Assembly: GCA_035691305.1 (NCBI GenBank)
Contig: DASSJF010000013.1
Location: 1-64,000, forward strand
DNA from: a bacterium
GTDB taxonomy: Bacteria; Sysuimicrobiota; Sysuimicrobiia; Sysuimicrobiales; Segetimicrobiaceae
DNA: 64,000 bases
Reading direction: 5' to 3'
Shown here: positions 59,671-64,000 of the stretch, piece by piece
Layout: every line of letters begins with the position of its first letter
Position numbering within the stretch: position 1 is the first letter of the stretch
Program-made: the position numbers and the translations under genes
The notes under the pieces: model-generated
Database searches by the model: none
What the model was told of the DNA's origin: nothing
What the model saw: the letters and a program-made list of their open reading frames with translations, nothing else

Positions 59671-61182
59671 GTGATCGGCACGCCCAGCGCGCCGCTGCGG
59701 GATGCGCATCGACCGGTTCTCGGCACCCGCGTGCGGGTCGAGTTTACCGAAATGTCGAACGGCCGACGCGCGGTCGCGCATGTCGGATCCTGGACGGTCG
59801 CCGTCGAGGACGCCGTTCCGGGCGACGTGGCGGACGTCGAATTGCGCGAGCGCCGCGGCGCAGCCTATCGCGGACATCTCCTCGCGCTTGTGCGCCCGTC
59901 GCCACATCGTGTGCGCCCGGCGTGCTCCTACTTCGAGCGGTGCGGCGGCTGCCAGTGGCAGCGCCTCGATACGGCGGCGCAAGCCGAGTACAAGGGCACG
60001 CTTGTGCGGCGGGCACTCCGCGCGGTCGGCCTCGGCGGGGTGCCGGTGCGCGTCGTCCCCGCGAGGGCGGCGTGGGGCTACCGCACCGCCGGCACGTACG
60101 TGCCGGCGGTGGACGGCGGATCGGCGGCCCTCGGCCTGCACGCCGCGGATGCGGCGTCCGCCGTGGCGATCCGCGCGTGCCCCATCCAGTCGCCGGCTCT
60201 CCAGGCGGCGTTCGACGAAATGCAGCGCGCCTGGTGCGATCTGATTTTGCGCCTCGACGACGCGGACGGGGACCGTTCGGCGTGGCGCCAGATCCGGATC
60301 AGGGCCGGCGAGGCGTCGCGCGAGGTCGCGGTCGGACTCGTCCACGCGGGACGTCTGTCGCCGCGCGCGCGCGCGGCCGTCGTCGAGCTGATCGGCGGCC
60401 GGATCACGCGATTGGTCGAGATTACGGTGAAGCCGGCGCGGCGGCCGGCCCGGACGGGCGAGCCGATGAGCGAGCTGCGGTGGGGACGCGCGGGGGTGGT
60501 TGAGGCGATGCTCGACCGCTGGTACCACGTCCCCGTCTTCGCGCCGTTCCCCGTGTCGGGTCGTGGCGACGCCGTCGCCGCGGCAGTCGACGCGCTGGCG
60601 CCCGACGGCGAGACGACCGTGCTCGAGACCGAGGCGGGAATCGGCGCTTACACGCTGCCTGCGGCCGCCGCGGCGCGCCGCGTCATCGGGCGCACGACGG
60701 GAGAACATTTGCAGACGGCCCGGGAGAACGCGCGGTGGAACGAGGCGTCAAACGTGATCTTTGCCGACCGCACCGCCGAGACGTTGACGCGGATGCTGCG
60801 CTCGTACGGTCCGGTTGGACGCGCACTCGTGCAGGTGACGCCCGCGCCCGTCCCGTTCGAAACGCTGCACCGCGCGGGCCTCGAGCGCGTCGTCCTCCTG
60901 GCCGGCTCGCCGGCGCGGCTCGCGGAAGTCCTGACCGCCGGCGCTCCCGGATTTGAGGCCCGCTCCATCACGGTGGTCGACACGCATCCGCAGACGAGCC
61001 GTGCCGAGATCCATGCGGTGCTCGACGCGCGGCACGGCGCGTGGGCTGGTGCGGACTACGTGACGGACTCGGAGGCGGCGCCGACCGCGGCGTCCACGGA
61101 ACCGAACACCGGGCAGAGGGATGCGAAGTCCACCGCGCGGAGGATCCCGCCGACGGGTGATTCCGGAGCCGCGACGAGGTAG
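59671..61182 (+). CDS. TrmA/RlmD-family RNA methyltransferase homologue lacking the catalytic Cys
   Basis: A 503-residue member of the iron-sulfur uracil-5-methyltransferase family. A TRAM-like N terminus is followed by the cluster motif CSYFERCGGCQWQ and a fourth cysteine in ACPIQSPAL. The SAM motif is diverged (ETEAGIGAYTLP). At the catalytic site, where the family has DPPRxG and SCNPATLARD, this protein has TPAPVP and AGSPARLAEV: the nucleophilic cysteine is glycine. The general-base glutamate (AEIHAV) remains. GTG 59671 has GGGAGG upstream and is preferred to ATG 59632. The C-terminal 50 residues overlap the STAS gene in antisense. Confidence 0.85.
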   Translation: MIGTPSAPLRDAHRPVLGTRVRVEFTEMSNGRRAVAHVGSWTVAVEDAVPGDVADVELRERRGAAYRGHLLALVRPSPHRVRPACSYFERCGGCQWQRLDTAAQAEYKGTLVRRALRAVGLGGVPVRVVPARAAWGYRTAGTYVPAVDGGSAALGLHAADAASAVAIRACPIQSPALQAAFDEMQRAWCDLILRLDDADGDRSAWRQIRIRAGEASREVAVGLVHAGRLSPRARAAVVELIGGRITRLVEITVKPARRPARTGEPMSELRWGRAGVVEAMLDRWYHVPVFAPFPVSGRGDAVAAAVDALAPDGETTVLETEAGIGAYTLPAAAAARRVIGRTTGEHLQTARENARWNEASNVIFADRTAETLTRMLRSYGPVGRALVQVTPAPVPFETLHRAGLERVVLLAGSPARLAEVLTAGAPGFEARSITVVDTHPQTSRAEIHAVLDARHGAWAGADYVTDSEAAPTAASTEPNTGQRDAKSTARRIPPTGDSGAATR

Positions 61183-61433
61183 AGCGCGCGGCGGCTCACC
61201 CTGAGGCGCGTCGCCGTCTGGAACAACGTCGCGACGCCGTGGCTGTCCAGATATTCGGCCACGATCAACGAGACGATCACGGGGCCGGCCGTCTGCGCGG
61301 CCGCCGTTTCCAGCGCGGCGGCCAACCTGGGAACGGTTGTCATGTCGACGACCCCGTCCACCTCGACGAATATCCCTCGGCGAGCACGAAGAGCGCCGCC
61401 GCGGCCACGGCGGCCATCATGTGATTGAACCAC
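61056..61433 (-). CDS. STAS-domain anti-sigma-factor antagonist-like protein
   Basis: A 125-residue protein with a basic N-terminal tail (about 1-20) and a STAS fold: GIFVEVDGVVDMTTVPRLAA, VIVSLIVAEYLDSHGVATLF, RALYLVAAPE, and ILRAVDFASLCPVF. The phosphorylatable serine is probably Ser of YLDSHG, as in SpoIIAA-type proteins. GTG 61433 is the start used. The gene overlaps the 3' end of the TrmA-family gene by 127 bases on the other strand. Confidence 0.75.
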   Translation of the reverse strand: MVQSHDGRRGRGGALRARRGIFVEVDGVVDMTTVPRLAAALETAAAQTAGPVIVSLIVAEYLDSHGVATLFQTATRLRVSRRALYLVAAPESPVGGILRAVDFASLCPVFGSVDAAVGAASESVT

Positions 61434-61545: not shown

Positions 61546-63996
61546 TTATTGCCCGGCGTCGGCGACAGGCGGCGCGCCGCCTGCCGGCAAAGCGGAGTGG
61601 TTGGACGGCGCCGTCACATACCTGCCGGTAAACAACCACACGAACGTCACACCGAAGACACACGCCCCGGCCATGATCCACAGCGCGACCGGCGGTGAGG
61701 CGGCGTCGGCGACGCGCCCGAGCGCCAAGGCCCCGATGAGCCGCGTGCCCTGGAGCAGCATCTGCCGGTTTCCGAGGACGCGCCCGAGCAGCGCCTGGGG
61801 CGTCACCTGCATGACCAGCGTGGCGTTCACGATGCTCGTCATCATGTTGCCGACCGCGAAGATGAACGCACCCGCGACCAGGCCGAGATACCACGGCGCC
61901 GTGGCGAAAACGGCAACCCCAAACCCCGCCAGGATGTAGGCAAACACCGCCAGACTCGGCGTCGCCCAGCGCCTCGTCAGGCCCGCGAGGACGAGCGCGG
62001 TTGCGAGCTTGCCCACGCCGAGCGCGCTGTTTACGACGCCATAGGCCGCCGGCGAAAGATGCGCCGTGTGGACCACCATCGGTGCGCGAAGCACTTCAAA
62101 CGCGAGCGTCAGGTATCCCGGCAGGATCAGCAGCGCGAAATACCGCTGAAAGGGCGTCTGCCACATGTACCGCAGACCGGACATCAGATCCGCGGTAATG
62201 GTCGCGCCGCCCCGCGCGCCGAGTCCGGCGCCCCAGGCGAGCGGCATCAGCAGAACGCAGATCGCGCTCACGAGGAACGACCCGGCGTCCGCGAACATCA
62301 CCCCGGCGTACCCCAGCGTCAGCACCGCGGCGGCACCGAGCACGCCCCCGGCGATCTCGGCGATGCGTTCCGTCGTCTGAAACAGCGCGTTGATCGCCGG
62401 CAACTCCTCGACCGTCGCGATCGACGGCAAGAGCGCGGTGACCGCCGCCCGGAAGAAGACGGAGCCGACGTTCAAGATGCCGAGGAGAAGGAGGCCGAAG
62501 GGCAGCGACCTCGGCAGCACAAACGGCAGCGCCGCCACGACGATCGCCCGTCCGACGTCGGACAGCGCCACCACGGCTCTGCGGTCGACACGATCTGCCA
62601 CGGCGCCCGCGAGAAAACTGAACAACGCCTGCGCCACGTATCCCGCCGAGAGTGCGGCGGCGAGCGTCACGGCCGATCCGGTCAGCGCGTACACCCACAG
62701 CGTAATGGCGATGAAGAAGACCTCGTCGCCGAGAAACGACACCGCCTCGCCGAACCACAGGAGCGCGAAAGCGGGACGGCGCAGCACCGTCAGCCACGCG
62801 GGGGCCGGCCCGCCGGCGGAGCCGGGCGCCGGGCGGGCGGCGAGGGTCCGCAGCGCCCGCACGAGCACCGGGTCGAATTGCGTCCCGCTGCACCGGTCGA
62901 GCTCGGCAAGAGCCGCCGCGGCATCCCGCCGGGAGCGGTAGACGCGATCGTTCGTCAGGGCGTGATAGGTGTCCGCGATCGCGACGATGCGGGCGGCGAG
63001 CGGGATCTCGCGGCCGCGCAGGCCGTCCGGGTAGCCGGTGCCGTCGTAGTGCTCGTGGCTCGCGCGCACCATCGGCGCGATGCGGGATAAGCCGGCAATC
63101 GACGCGACCATGTCGGCGCTGTCGACGACGTGAGACCGCATGATGTCCCACTCTTCCGGAGTGAGTTGGCCGGGCTTCTGGAGAATGGAGTCCGGGACCA
63201 CCACCTTGCCGACATCGTGCAGCAACCCCGTGAGGAACGCATCGTGCGCAAGCCGCTCGTTCACGCCGATCGCCCGCGCGAGCCGCTTCGCGAGTTGGGC
63301 GACGTCCTGCGAATGCAGGCCGGTCCGGCTGTCTTTGACGTCCATCGCGTCGGCCAGCACGGCGGTCGTGGCAAGCACGCGCCGCTCTTCCTGGCCGCTC
63401 ATGGACTGCGGATGAAAGACGTGCAGCACGACGCCGCCGGCAAGCAGCGGCAACATGCTCAACGCCACTCCTCCGGTTCCGGGAAGCCAGATGCGCTCCA
63501 CGGTGACGGTGGTCAGCGCGAGCAGCACCGAGATGCCGAAGGAGGTACCGCAGGCGCTGGCCACGATCGCGAACGCCCGGCCCCACCCCATCCCCTCGTT
63601 TCTCGCGATCCGCGTCGCCACGAGCGGCGTGCGGATCGCGGCGTAGACGACCGCCGCAAGCACAACGCCGCCGAGCCGGTAGGGCGCGTGAGGGAGCGGC
63701 AGCAGCACGGCCGCCAGCACCGCGCCCGACAACGCGGTCGCTTCCTCGATCGCGCGCAGCCCGCCCCACCGCTCCGCTTCGGTGCCGGCCGCGAGGACCA
63801 GGCCCGCGAGCGCGCCGGCGGCGGCAAGAACCGGCCGCCCGACGCCGAGGGCGACGATCACCGGGACGAACACCAGCGGGAAGTCATCGCTCGGCGAGAT
63901 CCGCAGCGGATAGGCGGCGAGCCACGCGACGGTGGCGGCGGTGGCCAGCAGCAGGGTCGGATCCGCCGGCGTCAGGTGCTCATGAAACCCGATCAC
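61546..63996 (-). CDS. HD-GYP phosphodiesterase fused to MFS transporter (partial at 5' end)
   Basis: An 816-residue frame running to the window edge; GTG 63996 may not be the true start. Residues 1-200 form a 6-helix membrane domain. Residues 203-385 are an HD-GYP domain: LLHDVGKVVVPD (HD at 260-261), KPGQLTPEEWDIMRSH, SHEHYDGTGYPDGLRG (GYP at 321-323) and GTQFDPVLVRAL. Such domains hydrolyse cyclic di-GMP. Residues 402-800 are an MFS exporter with twelve helices, similar to the MFS_3 group. One frame joins them with no stop, so this appears to be a real fusion. Confidence 0.88.
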   Translation of the reverse strand: MIGFHEHLTPADPTLLLATAATVAWLAAYPLRISPSDDFPLVFVPVIVALGVGRPVLAAAGALAGLVLAAGTEAERWGGLRAIEEATALSGAVLAAVLLPLPHAPYRLGGVVLAAVVYAAIRTPLVATRIARNEGMGWGRAFAIVASACGTSFGISVLLALTTVTVERIWLPGTGGVALSMLPLLAGGVVLHVFHPQSMSGQEERRVLATTAVLADAMDVKDSRTGLHSQDVAQLAKRLARAIGVNERLAHDAFLTGLLHDVGKVVVPDSILQKPGQLTPEEWDIMRSHVVDSADMVASIAGLSRIAPMVRASHEHYDGTGYPDGLRGREIPLAARIVAIADTYHALTNDRVYRSRRDAAAALAELDRCSGTQFDPVLVRALRTLAARPAPGSAGGPAPAWLTVLRRPAFALLWFGEAVSFLGDEVFFIAITLWVYALTGSAVTLAAALSAGYVAQALFSFLAGAVADRVDRRAVVALSDVGRAIVVAALPFVLPRSLPFGLLLLGILNVGSVFFRAAVTALLPSIATVEELPAINALFQTTERIAEIAGGVLGAAAVLTLGYAGVMFADAGSFLVSAICVLLMPLAWGAGLGARGGATITADLMSGLRYMWQTPFQRYFALLILPGYLTLAFEVLRAPMVVHTAHLSPAAYGVVNSALGVGKLATALVLAGLTRRWATPSLAVFAYILAGFGVAVFATAPWYLGLVAGAFIFAVGNMMTSIVNATLVMQVTPQALLGRVLGNRQMLLQGTRLIGALALGRVADAASPPVALWIMAGACVFGVTFVWLFTGRYVTAPSNHSALPAGGAPPVADAGQ

Positions 63997-64000
63997 GGCG

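Follow-up and report, generated by a model that had tools for sequence, protein, structure and literature searches.

Does the gene at one edge of the analysed window (the whole stretch of 64,000 nucleotides) encode a single protein in which an HD-GYP domain is joined to an MFS transporter, and does such a domain destroy cyclic-di-GMP or read it? Motility, biofilm and secretion are the main processes that cyclic-di-GMP is known to control. With an HD-GYP domain covalently attached to a transporter, and the separate form present in sister families, direct gating of small-molecule export by the messenger could be tested.

Extent of the fused gene

The frame at positions 61546-63996 on the reverse strand contains 816 open codons, and a sensor, an HD-GYP domain and an MFS domain stand in it together, as the first-pass annotation had proposed. 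The length given there did not hold, however, as the window truncates the gene; on the longer contig the frame is still open beyond base 64000. By comparing relatives we placed the start at a GTG at window-equivalent position 64065. Its first base is found 65 bases beyond the edge of the window and 69 beyond the start assumed before, and the protein, further called fused B, has 839 residues. Pfam detected HD_5, HD, HDOD and MFS domains only, with 132.3 bits for HD_5 (cut-off 27.2) and 85.3 bits for MFS_1 (cut-off 33.4). The HD_5 profile and the GYP motif place the protein in the HD-GYP family. The HD, SHE and GYP motifs could all be read as they had been annotated. The features are presented in Table 1.

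Table 1. Positions of the parts of fused gene B and of its partner gene A, in window coordinates.
Feature	Position	Strand	Description	Basis
Fused gene B	61546..64000 within the window, continuing past the edge	(-)	839 aa	ORF and relatives
N-terminal membrane sensor domain	63466..63975	(-)	residues 31-200	ECF S-component-like fold, MASE9-related
Helical stalk	63358..63453	(-)	residues 205-236, from membrane domain to HD-GYP	model helix 205-244; dN/dS 0.02-0.07
HD-GYP domain	62851..63357	(-)	residues 237-405	Pfam HD_5; PDB relatives V-cGAP3, PmGH, PA4781, DvhD
HD diad	63214..63219	(-)	H283-D284	sequence; invariant in 8/8 fused proteins
SHE motif	63052..63060	(-)	S336-H337-E338, Ser in place of the first His of HHE (H276 in PmGH)	sequence, alignment
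GYP motif	63028..63036	(-)	G344-Y345-P346	sequence; 8/8 fused proteins
Linker from HD-GYP to MFS	62791..62850	(-)	residues 406-425	poorly conserved; pLDDT low near 414-418
12-helix MFS exporter domain	61621..62790	(-)	residues 426-815, motif A GAVADRVDRR	Pfam MFS_1; fold match
Partner gene A	window-equivalent 64062-65339 (L017:3563-4840)		directly upstream of B, outside the window	homology

Distribution of the fusion and selection on its parts

The search of the phylum covered 43 genomes, which belong to one order and seven families. This make-up is reminiscent of Sysuimicrobiota (CSP1-3), a phylum with a single class and a single order (PMC11604079), which would be a tentative assignment. We found the full-length fusion with intact frame in 8 of the 12 genomes of family f1 (43-82% identity), three of them from one genus (G000, G001, G002) and five from other genera (G004, G005, G006, G007, G009). 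The first-pass annotation had named a stop or frame break between the HD-GYP and MFS domains as the sign that a sequencing error had joined two adjacent genes; there was none in the eight assemblies. Since the protein is full length in eight independent assemblies of one family, the fusion is not an assembly join, and with purifying selection on both halves as well, the probability that assembly or sequencing merged neighbouring genes is negligible.

Selection was assessed within the genus by simple Nei-Gojobori counts from three genomes, for which synonymous sites are partly saturated and the linker comprises 20 codons. The dN/dS values indicated purifying selection on both the HD-GYP (0.11-0.18) and the MFS domain (0.10-0.13); they were looser for the linker (0.28-0.82) and lower for the stalk (0.02-0.07). 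By these counts fused B is a pair of constrained domains joined through a freer linker.

The fusion was absent from four members of family f1, all of genus g2 (G003, G008 and the incomplete G010 and G011), and therefore it seems dispensable. A search for other proteins with the same domain order, which had been suggested as a check, yielded the eight full-length fused proteins, all within family f1. There was no such fusion in two other phyla, of which 392 and 291 genomes were screened (two to three candidates scored per genome), in approximately 340 genomes outside the phylum searched with a profile of the fused protein (two candidates scored per genome), or in a phylum with four genomes; these wider screens can miss a fusion to a different MFS or in another domain order. 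In a collection of 84,980 species the loci found carry an HD-GYP domain without the MFS half. The sole long match in that collection (L035) was rejected, as it consists of two separate HD-GYP genes.

Partner gene A and relatives with separate genes

The product of gene A is likewise a membrane protein and has an HD-GYP-like domain of its own. The overlap of A with B amounts to 4 bases in seven of the eight fused loci, and also in outgroups G015 and G017. In families f2, f5, f6 and f7 of the same phylum, each of the three parts has a gene of its own next to the others, as a rule arranged MFS–A–B. Such separate genes, all in one direction, were present in 11 genomes of four families other than f1; in a twelfth genome (G026) the MFS gene lies about 4 kb from A-B on the opposite strand, and in a thirteenth (G012) A-B stands at the contig start. 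Clear unfused orthologues of the MFS (E < 1e-35) had A-B beside or near them in every genome except G035, where the orthologue sits on a contig of only 3.5 kb. A supposed relic of A in G003 proved to be a different HD-GYP protein.

In the MFS tree the fused and operon MFS formed one group, apart from the phylum's other MFS proteins (support 95/96); a long branch leads to the fused clade. In terms of sequence, the fused MFS is orthologous to the operon MFS. Because the parts are neighbours elsewhere and the fused MFS groups with the operon MFS, the fusion most likely welded members of a functional set that existed before. Such a history would require the MFS, which precedes A in the operon form, to have ended up downstream of B, and the tree does not settle which way the change went. 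As the parts sit side by side as separate genes in relatives, signalling and export probably belong to a single machine. The link between messenger and transport, which had been proposed from the fusion, is supported by the conserved neighbourhood of the separate-gene form.

Predicted structure of the membrane domains

The full-length protein was modelled with a mean pLDDT of 86 and a pTM of 0.60; in this model a membrane domain at the N terminus is followed by a long helix, then by the HD-GYP domain and the MFS helices. The N-terminal domain was also modelled alone, by AlphaFold (pLDDT 88, pTM 0.85). In the VIA comparison of this model the best 12 chains were all ECF transporters (Z 9-14.1; next 5.9), nearly all matches being S-components (RibU, ThiT, BioY, PanT), while the Foldseek E-value was not significant. 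At the sequence level, the Pfam MASE9 family was matched by 8 of 36 homologous N-terminal domains (best E 3.7e-11), the window copy not among them, and the ECF riboflavin S-component family by 5 of 36. As modelled, the domain has the fold of an ECF S-component, with which sequence agrees weakly. The model and the sequence suggest a sensor that binds a small molecule. ECF S-components serve vitamin uptake together with EcfT/EcfA; the S-component-like domain of fused B is joined to an HD-GYP domain instead. The first-pass annotation was right about a membrane sensor-like domain; it missed its ECF-S/MASE9 nature, gene A and the separate-gene relatives.

The MFS part matched solved MFS transporters, including SotB, VMAT and VAChT, with Z 35-39 over approximately 370 residues. 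The MFS exporter was described as complete, and both the MFS_1 profile and the 12-helix fold of the model agree with this. Its closest named subfamily was the H+ antiporter family TIGR00900 (2A0121), for which it scored below the curated cut-off (165.8 bits, cut-off 319.6). The nearest MFS models, EntS, Mef and Tap, all scored far below their own cut-offs.

Active sites of the HD-GYP domains

Active-site residues were numbered by alignment to PmGH. All eight fused B proteins have Ser at H276, His or Asn at D308, and Asp, Ala or Ser at R192, the residue that contacts D308. All eight keep D183, H189, H221, D222, K225, H250, H277, D305, the GYP motif and R314, the substrate arginines included. 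Therefore six of the seven standard metal ligands are retained, the H276 position being the exception. The unfused B proteins follow the canonical pattern of the class that has Tyr at the E185 position, and carry HHE in 11 of 13 cases and SHE in 2 of 13; three unfused B proteins of family f2 share the changes at R192 and D308. The SHE motif, which had been flagged as unusual, is indeed so: it occurred in 8/8 fused proteins and in 2/72 other HD-GYPs sampled. Because the sample was not drawn at random and the fused proteins are relatives of one another, these counts stand for one or few events.

In every A protein (21/21) K225 and R314 are gone and D305 is replaced by Glu, and on these grounds A is predicted to be inactive. 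In genus g1 (L017:3563-4840, L091, L092) even the GYP motif of A is lost; A of other families mostly keeps it.

In PmGH the mutants H276A and D308A lose activity (PMC4159591), and active HD-GYP phosphodiesterases have the full ligand set H...HD...H...HH...D (PMC8177086). Fused B lacks the full set in 8/8 cases owing to Ser at the H276 position. The extra histidine is described in the same review as an addition of HD-GYPs (PMC8177086), so a HD metal site without it is conceivable. The first-pass annotation had labelled the domain as a cyclic-di-GMP phosphodiesterase. The HD-GYP domain is real, but turnover of cyclic-di-GMP is doubtful, since a metal ligand whose alanine mutant is inactive in PmGH is lost and D308 is changed as well. 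With these two residues gone, the fused domain is likelier to be a receptor, or a slow and altered hydrolase, than a full phosphodiesterase, and it may read the signal rather than destroy it. Our main doubt concerns hydrolysis: that the D183/K225 pair is kept favours some catalysis, and that a ligand is lost speaks against it.

An inactive HD-GYP domain can serve as a receptor of cyclic-di-GMP, as seen in DvhD of Desulfovibrio vulgaris, a membrane protein that binds this messenger without hydrolysis (PMC13090378). DvhD (9rbz/9rc0) is a relative of the fused HD-GYP domain in sequence and fold; it differs by a PAS sensor, by its tie to a protease-adhesin system and by having no transporter fused. 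The active phosphodiesterase PmGH (4mcw) shares the fold, nearly the same ligand set and the GYP loop with fused B, but keeps H276, E185 and D308 and is without a transporter. The best-scoring solved relative was V-cGAP3 (PDB 5z7c), a 3'3'-cGAMP phosphodiesterase of Vibrio. It has two stretches that match HD-GYP, the first degenerate and the second with HHE, which resembles A plus B. However, V-cGAP3 is one chain without a transporter domain and its second domain has HHE, whereas A and B are separate proteins.

Cyclic-di-GMP genes in the genome

The check for genes of cyclic-di-GMP signalling was extended here to the whole genome. This genome, G000, contains 8 GGDEF domains and roughly a dozen further HD-GYP matches; neither EAL nor PilZ gave a match. 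Since there is no EAL match, HD-GYP proteins are the only breakdown enzymes of known kinds found in G000, and breakdown of cyclic-di-GMP seems to run through them, judged from gene content. The natural series of canonical B, SHE B and degraded A may show how HD-GYP enzymes turn into receptors, in a genome without EAL or PilZ matches.

Possible mechanism

We favour a complex of sensor and exporter under the control of cyclic-di-GMP or a related dinucleotide, in which A would be the inactive partner, and we give this reading a little less than an even chance. We infer that A and B would form a membrane complex via their membrane domains and stalks. The S-component-like domains would have a small molecule as ligand, either outside the cell or within the membrane, and on the cytoplasmic side the HD-GYP domain of B would bind cyclic-di-GMP or a related dinucleotide. 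The two inputs would together determine how active the attached exporter is, which may move a related small molecule out with protons, both the substrate and the direction being presumed. Two observations speak against this reading: the catalytic D183/K225 pair and six of seven ligands are kept in 8/8 fused proteins, which would be odd if hydrolysis had been abandoned, and two unfused B proteins also have SHE. A more specific proposal seems doubtful. According to it, the ECF-S-like sensor and an HD-GYP domain turned from phosphodiesterase to allosteric switch through loss of the metal-ligand His would gate the MFS directly, together with a dead HD-GYP partner.

The roles may also be reversed. 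The MFS and the S-component-like domain would then sense the substrate, and the transport state would switch a working HD-GYP domain and lower cyclic-di-GMP upon export. This would fit the conservation of the catalytic pair, the six ligands, GYP and R314 in all fused B and the canonical H276 in 11/13 unfused B, and it has a precedent in CbrA, where transporter and histidine kinase are fused (PMC13022988). We consider it unlikely; H276 and D308, whose alanine mutants are inactive in PmGH, are lost in all fused B.

It is more improbable that the fusion is one of convenience, in which sensor-HD-GYP and exporter are co-expressed in one pathway with no mutual control, and only stoichiometry or location is fixed by it. 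The linker is weakly conserved and of low confidence in the model, and in the operon form the parts are separate polypeptides, which agrees with such an arrangement. Against it, four genera have preserved the fusion at 43-48% identity, and the HD-GYP changes are common to the fused clade.

Transporter and signalling enzyme are known to share one polypeptide in CbrA and the SLC5-STAC histidine kinases (PMC13022988, PMC7096432). They differ from fused B in having SLC5 and not MFS, and a kinase and not a cyclic-dinucleotide domain; by its Pfam domains fused B is not an SLC5-STAC-HK transceptor. The transport-system domains PTS_EIIC/EIIA_1 rarely occur with cyclic-di-GMP enzymes (PMC8846402); they are sugar phosphotransferase domains, called phospho-receivers in that review, whose main text does not contain the term MFS. 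Thus fusions of transporters with signalling domains are not new, and it is the HD-GYP–MFS combination that was not found in the literature or genome screens covered. In the open-licence literature, fifteen papers mention HD-GYP together with the major facilitator, and by their titles, openings of abstracts and word counts none of them deals with a fusion; no open-licence paper was found that combines 'MASE9' with 'HD-GYP'.

Other genes at these loci

Two copies of the operon-type MFS gene were present in G015 (C92, C104) and in G018 (C2, C283), and G018 has a further A-like match next to its second copy. Among the 12 separate-gene loci that hold an MFS, mraZ was within approximately 5 kb in seven (L078, L081, L082, L086, L087, L088, L089). 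In several of these, rsmH- and Mur/Fts-like genes of the division/cell-wall cluster then follow, as read by eye.

Just downstream of the fused gene, at positions 61056-61433 of the reverse strand, lies a gene for a STAS protein of 125 aa. This protein shares 67% identity with the C-terminal end of a multidomain protein of 1173 aa encoded at the same place in G002 (L092:10115-13636), which appears by eye to be PAS/GAF/SpoIIE-like. The STAS copy in the window looks like a remnant of that larger gene.
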